Below, piece after piece: positions 228 to 23,102 of a stretch of DNA of 64,000 nt. Location: the NCBI GenBank assembly GCA_017529925.1, contig JAFXMZ010000017.1, positions 1 through 64,000 of the forward strand, read 5' to 3'. The notes under the pieces were generated by a model. That model was not told the DNA's origin. It did not search any database and saw only the letters and a program-made list of their open reading frames with translations. This DNA comes from Clostridiales bacterium. GTDB lineage: Bacteria; Bacillota; Clostridia; Saccharofermentanales; Saccharofermentanaceae. Numbering within the stretch: position 1 is the stretch's first letter; each line of letters opens with the position of its first letter. Made by a program: the position numbers and the translations under genes.

Positions 228-2279
228 TTACTCCTTCTTTCCTCTGCCGAGCCTGTACATAAAGACTCCTCCCGCAACAAGAACGGCAAGACCGACGACA
301 CAGCCGGCGCCGATAAGCATATATGTCACAGGCGACCCGGAAGAATCCTTGCCCGCAGCAGGAGTTGCACCGTCAGAAGCGCCGGACGGTGCGGAAGATG
401 TCTCCTCAGGCGCCGGACTTCCCGTCGGTGCTGACGAAGGCTGCTTTTCCGGAGAAGCGGACGGAGTCGGGGTCGGCGTTGCCTTTCCGTCCGGCTCGGG
501 ATCGCCGTTGAGCTCAGGTACCGCATCCTTTCCGGAATAATCCTTGAGCGATATACCGTTCTCACCGAGAGGAACCTTATGGTCCAGGCCGACGAACCTT
601 CCGGAATCGTCCTGCCAGAGGACTTCCTTTACAAAGTTATATTTCTCTTCATCCCATGTTGTGAAATCATCCTTAACGAGTCCGCCCGTATCACCGGAGT
701 TCGCGTTAAAGCACCAGAATGTATGGTTCAGATGGTACTCGGCGATGAGCTGTCTCATATAAGTCATCCAGGTCAGATTGGGATCGGTCATGAACCCTCC
801 CCACTCGCCGATGAGAAGAGGTGCGGTCTTCGTGTCGTCGATATAGAGCCACGAGTCATACCAGTAATCATCCATAAGGGACTGATATGTAAATCCTCCC
901 TCAAACCAGGGCTGGGCATATACAGAAGGTCCGTAATCATGAGGAGAATAGACTACCTGCTTATTGCGCGCTTCGGATCCGAAATCTATAGGATAGTCCG
1001 CTACCGCACGCAGGTTTCCTCCCCACCAGGCATTGTAATAATCCCCGTCATCCGTCGAAGTATAATTATTCTTCCGGATATCGATAGGATATATCTGTAT
1101 ACCCTCGATCACGATCAGGGCGTGGGGATTCGCATCGAGTATAACGTTGCCTGCCCTTTCAGCCGCGCGCTTCCAGTTATTCTGATCGTCCGAATCATTC
1201 CATATCGCGTGATCTGTCTCCGATGCCTTTCCGTGGGGTTCGTTCTTTATGTCATAAGCTAATATCGTGTCGTTATTCGCATATCTCTTTGCCAGCCACT
1301 CCAGCGCCTCGATATACTGGTCCTCCGTAAAGTCGGAAGTATACCACATAGGCATCATATGACCCATGGAATCCGTCTTGCATGAGTGGATATCGATCAT
1401 GACCTTGATGCCTTTGTATTCGCAGATATCGAGGACATATTCCCATATCTCGAGACTGTTCATCGACTCGAGTTCGGAATTGTACGCGTGGTTATAGTTC
1501 GCCTCCGGATATTCCCCGTTCTTCCACTGAAGGATCAGCTCGGCGGACATAGGCACGCGCAGGAGATTAAATCCATGATCCGCAATAGATTCGAGCGACG
1601 AGCGGAGATTACATCCCCATACCCCGTCGAAAAGATTCGACCCCGTATTGTATCCAAACCACGATACACCCGTAAGCCAGACTTCAGTACCGTTCTGATC
1701 GACTATCTTATCGCCGTCAGTCGTGAGCCAGTCGTCACCGGCTACCGCGTCGCATTCGGGGATCTCGGCACTTCCGCTTCCTCCGTTGCCGGCGTTGCCG
1801 TTATTTCCGCCGTTGCCGTTATTGCCGTTGTTGCCGCCATTATTGTTATTGTTGTTGCCGCCTCCGTTCGGAGCAGGAGCTGTACCTGATCCTTCGACAG
1901 ATATCAGCGAGGCCGAAGTGATGTCGGAACCTTCCACCTGTATGCCGACATTGGAATCAAAGCCCCATGAGTTGGCACCGTCGGCAGATACCACTGCGGT
2001 AACACGGTTTCCGTCGACAGTATATGAATCAAATCCCCATCCGCTTGCAGACTTTACCGTTCCCGAGAACTCCACGACAACAGTTATCGTCTGATATCCC
2101 GAGCATCCGCTGAGATTAATCGTGATCTGTCCCCCGCTTCCCCAGGGGTTTACGTTGTCGACCTTACCTGATGCCTCGGCAAGTACGACACGGGGCGGGA
2201 TGGCTGCAGTGATCACGGCAGCCGATGAGAAGAATATTGCCGCCGTCAGTATCACGGACGCTATCTTACGCATCTTCAT
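228..2279 (-). CDS. Membrane-anchored GH5 endoglucanase with N-terminal binding-module-like domain
   Basis: This is a secreted beta-1,4-glucanase of glycoside hydrolase family 5. Order in the 683-aa protein: signal peptide (1-34, ends VVLA), a beta-rich domain of about 100 aa resembling a carbohydrate-binding module (two WGFDS motifs), an Asn/Gly linker, the GH5 barrel (about 180-560) with the acid/base Glu in DIKNEPHG and the nucleophile Glu in LIGEWGG, a Pro/Thr/Ser linker, and a C-terminal membrane helix followed by RLGRGKKE. It should therefore stay on the cell surface. No dockerin is visible. The ATG at 2279 was chosen over the start 14 codons upstream because the upstream ATG overlaps a TATAAT box and the signal peptide begins at 2279. 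The N-terminal domain resembles the C-terminal domain of the pilin at 21020-21787. Confidence 0.88.
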
Positions 2280-19119: not shown

Positions 19120-19946
19120 CGCGACTCACCTCCCAGGGAGATCCTTATCCCTTCAGACAGGAAGTAGAGTCCGAGTATATAGCACACCAGCATGAGCGAC
19201 GGAAATATGATCATCCACGGATAGTGCATCATATAGCTCTGCGCATCAGCGAGCATCTTTCCGTAACTGGCGTCAGGCGGCTGAACACCGAGTCCGAGAT
19301 AGCTCATCCCCGACTCGAAAAGTGTCATGTTGGCAAGTCCGATTACAGTCGCGGGAAGGAGCTGCGGCATGAGATTCGGGAAGATATGGACTGCCATGAT
19401 CCTCGAAGGCCTGACCTTGAGGACCTTGGCATGCATGATATATTCCTGCGACAGAAGACCTATGGTCCCTGTCCTTGCGACCCTCGCGAAAGTCGGCGCG
19501 AACACGACTCCGAGTGCAATGACGACATTAAAGAGCGACGGACCGAAAACGGCCACGGCTACGAGTGCAAGAAGGATACCCGGGAAGCACATGATGCTGT
19601 TTGAAAACAGCATTATGATACGGTCGCAGAATCCTCCGAAGTAGCCTGCAAGAAGGCCCGTGATCACGCCTGCGGTAAATGCGATGAGCACGCCCGTTAC
19701 TGAGATCAGCAGTGTATATTTCGACGCGGCAAGACATCTTGCAAAGACATCTCTTCCCATGTTGTCGGTTCCCATGAGATGCGCTGCAGAGGGGCCCTGC
19801 AGTTTCTCTGCCGCAGATGTCGCATTAGGAGACGGCGCTATCCCGGTAAGCGACAGGATAAATGCCAGTATCACGATCCCGAGAAGGACCGCACCTGTTA
19901 CATAGTATGCTCTCGAGGGAGATCTGTATGTCTTTGATGCCGTCAT
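19116..19946 (-). CDS. Peptide/nickel-type ABC permease (DppC-like)
   Basis: This is a 276-aa inner permease with an N-terminal helix, the family motif GTDNMGRDVFARCL, and a five-helix transmembrane core with the EAA-type loop (GLANMTLFESGMSYLGLG). It overlaps both neighbours by four bases and pairs with the DppB-like permease. Confidence 0.93.
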   Translation of the reverse strand: MTASKTYRSPSRAYYVTGAVLLGIVILAFILSLTGIAPSPNATSAAEKLQGPSAAHLMGTDNMGRDVFARCLAASKYTLLISVTGVLIAFTAGVITGLLAGYFGGFCDRIIMLFSNSIMCFPGILLALVAVAVFGPSLFNVVIALGVVFAPTFARVARTGTIGLLSQEYIMHAKVLKVRPSRIMAVHIFPNLMPQLLPATVIGLANMTLFESGMSYLGLGVQPPDASYGKMLADAQSYMMHYPWMIIFPSLMLVCYILGLYFLSEGIRISLGGESR

Positions 19947-20923
19947 GGTCTTGCCCTCTCTGAAAGCCTTTGTCTCGGATCTATCATCGCAGCAGCGATA
20001 TCAGCGATAAAGTAGAGAACTACCGTGATCACCGCCAGATAGAGGACCATTCCCGAAAGAAGCGGGAAATCCCTGACGGAGATCGCGCGCAGAAGAAGCC
20101 TTCCGAGTCCCGGAAGATTAAAGACCTGCTCGACTATAAGGCTTCCTCCGAGTATGTCGGACAATACGAGCGATATAACGGTTATCGTTGATACGGATGA
20201 GTTCGGAAGCACGTGTCTTACCATGATCCTGACATCGGACAGACCGTGGCTCTTGGCCGTTTTTACATAGCCTGATGCCCTCTCCTCGATCATGGATGCA
20301 CGAAGGAACTTGAATGTCATCGCTATCTTCGGAAGTGCGATACACAGTGAAGGCAGCAGCATGCATGAAAGGAACTGTGCGAAGTCTTCGGACGGAGCAG
20401 CATATCTGCCTATCGAGATAAATCCGAAGAGATTGGCAAACAGTACGATCATGAGCAGCGATAAAACGAAAGGCGGTATCGCGAATATGACATGCCCGAA
20501 TACGGACAATATATGATCGAGAGCATGTCCCGGGCGCCTGGAACTGAGCATCGCCGCGGGATAAGAGATAACTATGACCATTATGAGAGCTATTGCGCTC
20601 ATTCCGAGAGTCACGGGAAGCCTTGATGATATAAGCTCGGAGACGGGCTTCCTGAAGGACACCGATTCGCCGAGATCGCCCGTAACGGCGCCCCTTATCC
20701 AGTCCCCGTATCTCTCGGCGACAGGCTTGTCGAGCCCTGTCTGTTTTCTGTAATTTTCCACCTGGGCTTCGGTGGCATTCGGCCCGAGGACGACCCTCGC
20801 GGTATCACCGGGGATTATCGAAAAAGCGGCAAAGGTAAAAAAAGAAACGACAAACAGAGTAAGGATCAGTTCAACGATCCTTACTCCGAAATAACCCGCC
20901 TTTCCGTTGATCAAACCTTCCAT
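19943..20923 (-). CDS. Peptide/nickel-type ABC permease (DppB-like)
   Basis: This is a 326-aa permease with an N-terminal helix, the DppB-type segment SIIPGDTARVVLGPNAT, and the EAA loop (LIVEQVFNLPGLGRLL). It is the first gene of the permease-permease-ATPase operon. The ATG at 20923 is chosen. A longer frame to 20998 would run through the pilin terminator. No Shine-Dalgarno precedes the ATG. An extended -10 box ends nine bases ahead, so the mRNA may be leaderless. Confidence 0.9.
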   Translation of the reverse strand: MEGLINGKAGYFGVRIVELILTLFVVSFFTFAAFSIIPGDTARVVLGPNATEAQVENYRKQTGLDKPVAERYGDWIRGAVTGDLGESVSFRKPVSELISSRLPVTLGMSAIALIMVIVISYPAAMLSSRRPGHALDHILSVFGHVIFAIPPFVLSLLMIVLFANLFGFISIGRYAAPSEDFAQFLSCMLLPSLCIALPKIAMTFKFLRASMIEERASGYVKTAKSHGLSDVRIMVRHVLPNSSVSTITVISLVLSDILGGSLIVEQVFNLPGLGRLLLRAISVRDFPLLSGMVLYLAVITVVLYFIADIAAAMIDPRQRLSERARP

Positions 20924-20932
20924 AGTTAATTG

Positions 20933-20941
20933 ATTATAACA
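20933..20941 (-). promoter_or_regulatory. Extended -10 promoter immediately before the DppB-like ATG
   Basis: TGTTATAAT on the minus strand is separated from the ATG by nine bases. Transcription should begin at or just before the start codon. It lies within 40 bases of the preceding terminator, so it is the only room for a promoter. Confidence 0.6.
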
Positions 20942-20967
20942 CGAGAGTCCAAGATTATCGCACGGAT

Positions 20968-20995
20968 ACAAAAGAGCCGCCCGGAGGCGACCCTT
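20968..20995 (-). terminator. Terminator after the pilin-like gene
   Basis: A nine-pair stem with G-T wobbles (20973-20981 with 20986-20994, CGGA loop) is followed on the minus strand by CTTTTGTATC. Confidence 0.75.
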
Positions 20996-21019
20996 CATAT
21001 ATCTTTAAGATGTGATATG

Positions 21020-21787
21020 TCAGCTTACCGTAACACCTGTCAGCTGGACATTGCTCAGTCCTGATCCGGAGAACTGCAGATATACTTCCGAGTTTCCGCT
21101 GAATCTCCATGAATCCGAATTCTTGTTGAGCGTTACCTTGAGCACGCCGTCACTTGCGGTAAAGGAATCTCCGCTTCCGTAGTTTCCGAAGTTGCCGGAG
21201 ACACTGGTTACTGATCCTGTATAAGTGTATGTCAGCGTAACCTTATCTCCGCCGGAAAGAGAGGATGCATCAAACTTGACCCAGTCCTGATGATTGTCGC
21301 TCCATCCATTTGTCCTTCTCGAGGATACCGAAGCAGTAGAACCGCCGCCTCCGCCGCCGTTGCTTCCGCCGCCGCCTCCGCCGCTGCTCGTGGGAGCCGT
21401 AGTCGGTGCCGTGGTTGTCGTCACGGTAGTCGGAGCAGTAGTCGGTGTTGTCGTTGTCGTTGTCGTGGGCGTTGTAGTCGTAGTAGTCGTGGGCGTCTCT
21501 GTGGGAGTCTCGGTAGGTGTGTCGGAAGGCGAACCTGTTACGTTATCAACGACTGCGCCGGTAGGCTCAAGGCCCTCGATCTGGGAATTCTTATCGATGA
21601 TAGCCCTGATGTCCTGCTGTGCCTGCATCTCAAAATCATGCTTGGCATATTTGTTTTTCACCTCTTTGGTGTCGTTGATCGATTCACTGATGCCTACGAT
21701 CGCAACAGCCGACAGGATGACGATCACGGCAACAACAAGAACGATCTCAACCAGAGTGAAACCCTTTTTGCTTTCGATCTTCTTCAT
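21020..21787 (-). CDS. Type IV pilin-like protein with a binding-module-like C-terminal domain
   Basis: The 255-aa protein opens with a class III prepilin leader: KKG|FTLVEIVLVVAVIVI, with Glu at position +5 and a hydrophobic assembly helix. Next come about 45 mixed residues, a Thr/Pro-rich stretch, two Gly runs, and a final beta-rich domain of about 95 aa (SWRFSG, VYLQFSG). That domain resembles the N-terminal domain of the GH5 cellulase at 228-2279. The layout suggests a pilus-displayed binding domain, perhaps for plant polysaccharide; this is inference. The ATG at 21787 has AGGAG eight bases ahead. No other pilus gene is in the window. It has its own promoter and terminator. Confidence 0.82.
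   Translation of the reverse strand: MKKIESKKGFTLVEIVLVVAVIVILSAVAIVGISESINDTKEVKNKYAKHDFEMQAQQDIRAIIDKNSQIEGLEPTGAVVDNVTGSPSDTPTETPTETPTTTTTTTPTTTTTTTPTTAPTTVTTTTAPTTAPTSSGGGGGGSNGGGGGGSTASVSSRRTNGWSDNHQDWVKFDASSLSGGDKVTLTYTYTGSVTSVSGNFGNYGSGDSFTASDGVLKVTLNKNSDSWRFSGNSEVYLQFSGSGLSNVQLTGVTVS
21400..21530 (-). repeat. Low-complexity Thr/Pro codon repeat in the pilin-like gene
   Basis: Short ACN-ACN-ACN...CCN units encode runs such as PTTTTTTTPTT. The near-repetitive DNA could expand or contract in frame. Confidence 0.7.
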
Positions 21788-21838
21788 ATTCACATCTCCT
21801 TATTCAAAAATCCTGCGGACCTGTAAAAAACTATCTTG

Positions 21839-21844
21839 ATTATA
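21839..21844 (-). promoter_or_regulatory. -10 box of the pilin-like gene
   Basis: TATAAT lies about 52 bases before the ATG. The -35 region (ATGAAT at 17 bp) is weak. Confidence 0.45.
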
Positions 21845-21920
21845 ATTCTTAGCCCGCGCCGATTCATTCACTTATGGCCCGTTTTTGTTTATATATTATT
21901 AAATTTCTATGAACTTGTGA

Positions 21921-23102
21921 TCAGACATCCGCTCCAAGACATCTCAGCACGTTGGAAAGATCCTGGACCGACGCCTTCTCAAGGCCATAGACAGCCGCTT
22001 CCTTCTTAACGTCTGACGCGATCTTCTCAATAGTCTGATCGTCGACTGATGGACAGACGGAATCGGGTGAATGCCTCCTGACGGTCATGCGCAGATAATT
22101 GACAAAGACATCTCCCGCCTGCTCATTCGATGTTCCGTTCGTACACAGATGGGCTTTGTGGGACAGTTCCGCCGCGCACTCTCCGTACAGCTTCGGCATC
22201 GTCTCTATCATAGCGGCGATGATCATCAGGTACAGTCCCCCGTCAGCCGTATGATACTTCTCGAAAAGGGCATTCATCAGCAGTTTCCCGTAGCCGAATC
22301 CTGTCATCCTCGATGCGAGCCCCGCATAGAATCCCCCGATGGAGTTCATCCTTCGAAGATAAGTATCTCCGGGATTGTTCCTCATCTTATCTATATTGGA
22401 TATTATGCCCAGACACGAATCGAGGGCGTTGGCTTTGTATTCCGGCGAAAAGGACGAATACGGTGATGCATAAGATTCGAATGCCAGGCCGAGCGACAGC
22501 ATGGAACTTGAAGCAGATTCCTTCATGTCCGTCCTCATGGAAACATCCATATCGATAACGGCTATCTGAGGTATCAGGTACGAACTGAAGGCTGTATGCC
22601 ATTTCCTTTCGGTGTCGTCATAGTATTCTGCAAATGCCGACGAAGCTGCATATGAATTGTCGGTCATGACGCAGCAAAGGACGGTCATGTCCCTCCTGAT
22701 GTTGTTGATACCGTCAAAATCTTCGGCGCTCCTGCCGTAATTGGCTGCAAGCGCGGCGATATACTTGCCGCAGTCGATCTCACTGCAGCCGCCTATCGCA
22801 ACGACCGTATCACAGTTGAATTCATTGAATACCCTTATCCCTCCACGGATATCCGTAAGGGTGAGGTGCTTTTCGCGGCGTGTATATGAGAAGAGCCTGA
22901 AGCCCTCCTCCTCATATTTCTTCTTAAACTCAGAGATTATCCTGTAGTTCTGGTATTTGGCATCACAAAGAAAGAGTATCCTCTTCGTTCCGAGGCTTCG
23001 AAGTTCCTCCGCGGTCATCGTTGCCGAGCCGTTGTCGAGGTACAGGCTCTGCGTCTCATAAGATGCTTCCGAGACGTATTTGTAGAAGCCGACCGATGCC
23101 AT
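21921..23102 (-). CDS. Iron-type alcohol dehydrogenase fold protein lacking metal ligands
   Basis: The 393-aa protein follows the group III (iron-dependent) alcohol dehydrogenase plan. The N-terminal half has the nucleotide-binding loop AIGGCSEIDCGKYIAA. The C-terminal half is helical. The metal site is not recognisable: the region normally GmDAltHxiE reads SLGLAFES, and the later paired His segments read GFGYGKLLMNAL and HTADGG. It is probably inactive as a normal dehydrogenase, or uses another cofactor. It starts one base after the thrH stop, so the two are coupled. Function unknown. Confidence 0.7.
   Translation of the reverse strand: MASVGFYKYVSEASYETQSLYLDNGSATMTAEELRSLGTKRILFLCDAKYQNYRIISEFKKKYEEEGFRLFSYTRREKHLTLTDIRGGIRVFNEFNCDTVVAIGGCSEIDCGKYIAALAANYGRSAEDFDGINNIRRDMTVLCCVMTDNSYAASSAFAEYYDDTERKWHTAFSSYLIPQIAVIDMDVSMRTDMKESASSSMLSLGLAFESYASPYSSFSPEYKANALDSCLGIISNIDKMRNNPGDTYLRRMNSIGGFYAGLASRMTGFGYGKLLMNALFEKYHTADGGLYLMIIAAMIETMPKLYGECAAELSHKAHLCTNGTSNEQAGDVFVNYLRMTVRRHSPDSVCPSVDDQTIEKIASDVKKEAAVYGLEKASVQDLSNVLRCLGADV

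Follow-up and report, generated by a model that had tools for sequence, protein, structure and literature searches.

The gene described here probably encodes a modular type IV pilin, a reading to which we assign a probability of about 0.6. In this protein a CBM2-like carbohydrate-binding module, of the family to which the accessory module of a GH5 cellulase also belongs, would be carried on a helix anchor by a flexible linker and would grip plant-wall polysaccharide. Both the pilin gene and the cellulase gene lie in a 64,000-nucleotide stretch of contig JAFXMZ010000017.1, referred to below as the window. We propose that the prepilin peptidase PilD would cleave the prepilin before Phe10 and that the helix would then pack into, or cap, pili that the PilB/PilT/PilC/PilM machine builds. 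With the Thr/Pro-Gly linker keeping it away from the filament, the module would grip cellulose or a related beta-glycan of the plant wall, and the pili would carry the cell to the substrate of the GH5 enzyme. In this scheme we infer the processing, filament incorporation, tip position, ligand and expression of the pilin.

Reading of the open reading frames placed the start codon (ATG) of the pilin gene at position 21787 and its stop codon at 21020-21022 on the minus strand, in agreement with the frame, strand and coordinates given by an earlier, sequence-only reading of this DNA. That reading had also claimed a prepilin leader, and this was borne out by matches above the curated cut-offs of both NCBIfam TIGR02532 (24.7 bits, cut-off 16.3) and Pfam N_methyl PF07963 (21.9, cut-off 21.2). 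The leader ends in a G/F site (MKKIESKKG/FTLVE), the sequence continues as FTLVEIV with Glu at mature position 5, and cleavage is expected before Phe10 to give a mature protein starting with FTLVE. The N-terminal helix is kept among the pilins of the conserved locus described below. About 28 residues separate its end (residue 57) from the start of the linker (residue 86), and the pilin anchor is apparently small and helix-only. As the sequence-only reading had described, Thr/Pro and Gly linkers (residues 86-150) precede the C-terminal beta domain (residues 151-255). A search of 115 genomes of the family with the pilin domain identified an orthologous pilin in genome G013 (C3:256893-257171, E 5.5e-19).

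Table. Position, strand and basis of assignment of the features of the pilin locus and of the GH5 gene, numbered from the first letter of the window.
Feature	Position	Strand	Basis or remark
Modular prepilin, coding sequence	21020..21787	-	255 aa plus stop
AAGGAG, likely ribosome-binding site	21796..21801	-	8 nt 5' of the ATG; sequence reading
Class III leader MKKIESKKG	21761..21787	-	Matches to TIGR02532 and PF07963
Hydrophobic/amphipathic N-terminal helix, aa 10-57, about 50 residues	21617..21760	-	Limits by inspection
Linker, Thr/Pro-rich then Gly-rich, aa 86-150	21338..21532	-	Sequence
C-terminal CBM2-like beta domain, aa 151-255, about 105 aa	21023..21337	-	Profiles, predicted fold
5' neighbour, iron-containing alcohol dehydrogenase family	21921..23102	-	PF00465, 81.8 bits
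3' neighbour, first permease of peptide-type ABC transporter operon	19943..20998	-	PF00528, 110.2 bits
GH5 enzyme with the shared domain	228..2279	-	Pfam Cellulase PF00150, E 5.5e-49, aa 193-528
N-terminal CBM2-like domain of the GH5 enzyme	1884..2177	-	Family matches, model, CBM2 top rows

The sequence-only reading had lined up the pilin domain by eye with the N-terminal domain of the GH5 enzyme, which precedes the cellulase domain and has no Pfam match. Direct comparison of the two domains by BLASTP was not significant (E 2.4), and homology from the two window sequences alone was dropped for this reason. Reciprocal profile searches of whole genomes, however, supported the alignment: a pilin-only profile (six pilin domains, no GH5) matched the window's GH5 domain at E 4.2e-8, and a GH5-type profile (55 domains, no pilin) matched the window's pilin at E 1.0e-7. 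When the 115 family genomes were searched with the pilin domain alone, 28 matches were listed at E <= 0.1, comprising two pilins (its own gene and that of G013), 18 GH5 N-terminal domains and eight partial, chance-like matches. The 18 GH5 matches spanned nearly the whole domain, five of them at E < 0.003 (best 2.5e-5). The pilin-only profile gave 32 matches at E <= 0.001 among the 85 same-genus genomes, namely 7 pilins and 25 GH5 N-terminal domains (two of the latter on open reading frames cut by a contig end), and matched no other protein at this threshold. Profile-profile comparison by hhalign gave a probability of 94 (E 1e-7) for 2 pilins versus 12 GH5 domains, and of 97.2 (score 62.3) for 7 pilin versus 55 GH5-type domains; 15 column shuffles of the latter comparison gave a mean score of 10.3 and a maximum of 16.1. 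These reciprocal searches and shuffle controls ruled out chance or composition behind the similarity and confirmed, at the level of sequence profiles, that the pilin domain and the GH5 N-terminal domain are homologous. Of the seven pilins in this module class (class A, below), the window's pilin has the SW-x-F motif that had been noted as shared, the pilin of G013 has it as TW-x-F, and the remaining five lack it. The GH5 domain itself was matched in 84 of the 115 family genomes at E <= 0.1, most of these matches being strong and within the genus. In a sample of 391 genomes of the class, matches to the pilin profile occurred in 4 genomes and matches to the GH5-type profile in 11; every one of these genomes belongs to the window's genus.

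The shared domain looks CBM2-like by predicted fold and by profile. Analysis of the model of the GH5 domain (pLDDT 96.6, pTM 0.88) with Foldseek against the PDB returned as top rows 2czn (E 1.5e-4), 6qfs (E 2.7e-4) and 2cwr, all of which we take to be CBM2-type domains: 2czn a P. furiosus chitin-binding domain, 6qfs a C. fimi cellulose-binding domain of CBM2a, and 2cwr the ChBD of a P. furiosus chitinase. Comparison by VIA aligned the same model with 2cwr (Z 8.9, rmsd 2.9, 92 aligned) and with 1e5b, a C. fimi xylan-binding domain (Z 8.2, rmsd 2.6, 87 aligned). The fold predicted for the GH5 domain is that of the CBM2 beta-sandwich. The model of the pilin domain was of moderate quality (pLDDT 81.6, pTM 0.77), and the comparison of structures that the sequence-only reading had proposed as a check gave a divided answer for it. 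Its six best Foldseek rows were CBM2-type, with cohesins also among the rows, but by VIA sortase-pilin Ig-like rows took the lead (8w5b, Z 9.9, rmsd 2.5, 95 aligned), above 2cwr (Z 7.7). The fold of the pilin model is not independent evidence because its alignment included GH5-type domains; a CBM2 fold for the pilin domain is a weaker prediction, tied to that for the GH5 domain.

A reference of CBM2 sequences was prepared from genomes of the class, with 14 of 21 matches entering the profile and the seven others left out as weak or close to a contig end. Against this reference hhalign gave a score of 38.9 for the GH5-type family (maximum 19.2 in 200 column shuffles, 13.3 reversed) and of 32.5 for the pilins (maximum 13.7 in 15 shuffles). 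Pfam CBM_2 (PF00553), on the other hand, matched neither of the window proteins at E <= 1. Its cut-off was reached by 0 of the 56 members of the domain family, two of which matched weakly (best E 0.0041), and we therefore name the domain CBM2-like and not a CBM2 member. The profile search against CBM families that had been suggested as a check was in this respect positive by profile-profile comparison and negative by the Pfam threshold, and the binding-module-like domain of the sequence-only reading stands in the qualified form of a CBM2-like domain. When the PDB was searched by sequence, neither the single domains nor profiles A1 and A4 yielded a convincing match or any CBM2, so that CBM2 is suggested solely by fold and profile-profile comparison. 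The binding face of CBM2 carries a row of surface Trp. Joint alignment with CBM2 revealed two common Trp columns, one in an N-x-W close to the start and one at the -sxWng- turn. At the second of these the window's pilin has Phe/Tyr, and the six remaining class A pilins have Trp. Compared with CBM2 (PF00553; 2cwr, 6qfs and 3ndy, the last being EngD of C. cellulovorans), the domain is alike in predicted fold, length (about 100 aa), the two aligned Trp columns and profile similarity; it differs in falling below the Pfam cut-off and in missing the CBM2 Trp of -eWtv-.

The same domain was also seen in a second protein encoded near the GH5 gene in several relatives, which starts with a signal sequence and the CBM2-like domain and continues through a Pro/Thr linker and a single membrane helix into a long tail (L083:11937-13364, L087:11911-13488, L140:7188-9635, L115:12952-17061 and others). 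The tail is Lys/Ala-rich, with -PVKRP- or -PIKRP- repeats in several cases. None of nine such candidates, eight near the GH5 gene and one (L192) of another genus, had a Pfam catalytic domain. The window coincides with the start of its contig (G000 C13), and genes past the GH5 gene are consequently absent from the contig; the position of the membrane protein, if it occurs in the window's genome, would be past the contig end. A further protein of the same genus, secreted-looking and 250 aa long (L261:1348-2097, G072 C5), consists of two tandem true CBM_2 matches.

The pilin locus beside the gene for the CCA-adding enzyme is conserved throughout the genus. The region 6-26 kb upstream of the GH5 domain was taken from most genomes having the domain, giving 58 loci, many of them shortened by contig ends and one of them (L254, G063 C18) not a GH5-upstream stretch. 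A leader pattern, which may miss some genes, identified a pilin open reading frame of more than 150 aa in 21 of the 58 loci and short ones only (66-85 aa) in 6 more. Within the 32 full 20 kb stretches, 19 had a long pilin, 5 a short one only and 8 none. In the combined set of these upstream loci and earlier ones, most share one gene order, in which the CCA-adding tRNA nucleotidyltransferase (f0) is followed by the pilin and then by genes of the peptide-type ABC transporter (f3, f5, f6) and f4. The permease gene 3' of the window's pilin belongs to family f6, and the iron-containing alcohol dehydrogenase neighbour was present in 32 of the 85 genus genomes. At window positions 20998-23102 the CCA-adding enzyme gene is missing, and the ABC transporter genes run in the opposite orientation to those of most relatives. 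Scanning for promoter-like sites revealed none, and terminator-like sites were no more frequent than chance; synteny was accordingly dropped as evidence for an operon.

The pilin half is kept at this locus, and the C-terminal module is replaced repeatedly between species; neither this pattern nor the conserved locus had been noted in the sequence-only reading. The first 80 mature residues were up to 69% identical between loci with non-aligning C-terminal modules (L183 versus L225). Grouping of 29 pilin C-termini with the GH5 domain at E < 1e-5 gave classes A (7, plus the GH5 domain), B (7), C (6), D (4, among them the pilin of locus L084) and E (2) and three singles, of which one later joined B, one joined E and one was kept as F. 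Comparison between classes by hhalign related C to D (probability 79-84) and, weakly, D to E (54-60), and a C/D profile (A8) matched the window's GH5 domain at E 5.4e-4; the idea that all module classes are mutually unrelated was dropped on these grounds. Class B stood apart (probability 0.4 versus the GH5 domain, 1.1 versus CBM2 and 0.1 to 5.2 versus the other classes). When labels A, B, C-E and F were placed on a tree of the CCA enzyme from 25 loci, 11 changes were needed (minimum possible 3), compared with a mean of 12.2 for shuffled labels, 58 of 200 shuffles being as low as 11. Well-supported branches forced at least 3 (A), 6 (B) and 6 (C-E) changes; the exact counts are soft, the tree having been built quickly and including three long rows (L180, L203, L247). 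Class A pilins were found in 7 of the 85 genus genomes, class B profile matches in 35 and class C/D profile matches in 18. Counted in the last figure are G000, whose match lies in the GH5 domain itself, and G065, one of whose two matches does so too.

Together with the likeness of the pilin's module to that of the cellulase, the occurrence of this pilus gene with other modules in related species suggests a possible exchangeable adhesive tip for plant fibre. At slightly under even odds, we consider that the locus acts as a socket, in which a helix-only anchor fixed beside the CCA-adding enzyme would receive swapped C-terminal modules (A, B, C-E) and in which class A, the cellulase module family, would give pili and enzyme a common polymer target. 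Separate observations concern the number and size of leader-bearing frames. One locus (L201, G045 C4, 5181-7526) has three leader-bearing open reading frames in a row (78, 264 and 251 aa), two of them with different C-terminal modules. Giant leader-bearing frames of about 2400-3800 aa were seen at L303:8077-16935 (G083), L304:519-11861 (G066), L305:7403-14701 (G043) and elsewhere. The tails examined contain repeats ending in -GYTFxGWYxD- style units, the G043 frame has a class B module at its end, and each of the L303, L304 and L305 stretches has a further leader-bearing open reading frame of about 150 aa.

Pfam matches, supplemented by inspection, show that genes for both a type IV pilus machine and the prepilin peptidase are present in the genome. 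Genome cluster C3 holds two T2SSE ATPases, T2SSF and PilM_2, two open reading frames resembling PilN and PilO by inspection, and four prepilin-leader open reading frames, two of them very short (76 and 78 aa frames) and two of about 220 aa. The prepilin peptidase is represented by a Peptidase_A24 match at C34 (46.1 bits, cut-off 26.5). The pilin gene lies outside the main pilus cluster. Leader matches above cut-off were identified in all 85 genus genomes.

We weighed the carbohydrate-binding reading of the module against other explanations. We regard as unlikely the alternative in which, in enzyme and pilin alike, the module serves as an Ig-like spacer or for protein docking (cohesin-like) and not for glycan binding. 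The VIA ranking of the pilin domain, in which cohesins stand below the leading sortase-pilin Ig-like domains, and the cohesins among its Foldseek rows point that way, as does the membrane protein of several relatives, encoded close to the GH5 gene, that bears the same domain and no Pfam enzyme domain. The better of the two models, that of the GH5 domain, nevertheless puts CBM2-type domains first, and the GH5-type sequence profile reaches CBM2 well above shuffles. Less probable again is an explanation of module turnover as evasion of pilus-using phages or predators, or as strain competition, in which difference would matter more than ligand. The near-random distribution of module changes on the tree of the flanking gene and the high identity of the N-terminal part agree with evasion, but the sharing of one module class with a cellulase points to substrate. 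Class B is uninformative here, because its carriers are pilin-sized open reading frames plus one leader-bearing frame of 2433 aa.

We consider it quite improbable that the protein is a secretion-system pseudopilin or belongs to a competence pilus, and that its domain serves to export enzymes or take up DNA. Such a role would agree with weak matches, below cut-off, of the leader region to GspH, ComGD and other pseudopilins, although any prepilin leader may give these; apart from the generic leader no pseudopilin family was matched above cut-off, and the genome has a cluster with PilM_2 and two T2SSE ATPases. An adhesive modular pilin remains the reading that we prefer.

In the available text of PMC8179133, modular pilins number more than 1,200 and fall into 264 architectures, and carbohydrate-binding modules occur in some of them. 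The window's protein is a modular pilin in that sense because its pilin part is fused to a homologue of the GH5 N-terminal domain. The modular type IV pilins of Streptococcus sanguinis described there, PilB (vWA) and PilC (lectin), are thought to lie at the tip and to act in adhesion. The window's pilin resembles them in joining an N-terminal pilin part to a C-terminal module known from other proteins. It differs in that the module is CBM2-like and common to a GH5 cellulase, the Thr/Pro-Gly linker is long, the pilin part is apparently helix-only, and orthologous pilins at a single locus bear different modules. The same text describes PilC/PilY1 tip adhesins, with variable N-termini on a constant carrier. 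These likewise combine a constant carrier with interchangeable effector modules at the pilus, but PilY1 is not a pilin, whereas here the variation is C-terminal and the carrier is a pilin at a single syntenic locus in one genus.

The sequence-only reading had compared the protein with cellulose-adhesion pilins of Ruminococcus. As far as our results go, the host is a gut bacterium of the Saccharofermentans-like Clostridia and not Ruminococcus. Cellulose-associated pilins include CbpC/GP25/PilA1 of Ruminococcus albus and Pil3 (14 kDa) of R. flavefaciens, and the available text of PMC6916266 and PMC3672088 reports them without an appended module. The likeness lies in their being pilins of rumen Clostridia with a link to cellulose adhesion; the differences are the appended module and the organism. 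Our survey of the open-licence literature found no report of a pilin with CBM2 or another CBM in rumen bacteria, nor of a pilin that has its module in common with a cellulase or of a pilin locus at which modules are exchanged. Carbohydrate-binding modules on modular pilins are known already from the text of PMC8179133 available to us; the module common to a cellulase and the module-swapping locus appear to be new. Its repeated module replacement would make the locus a natural source of pilus adhesins that share an anchor and differ in ligand. In R. albus, direct cellulose binding by GP25 itself is described as unclear in the available text of PMC6916266, and the recognisable CBM2-like module of the window's pilin makes this question, of whether a pilin itself binds cellulose, directly testable.
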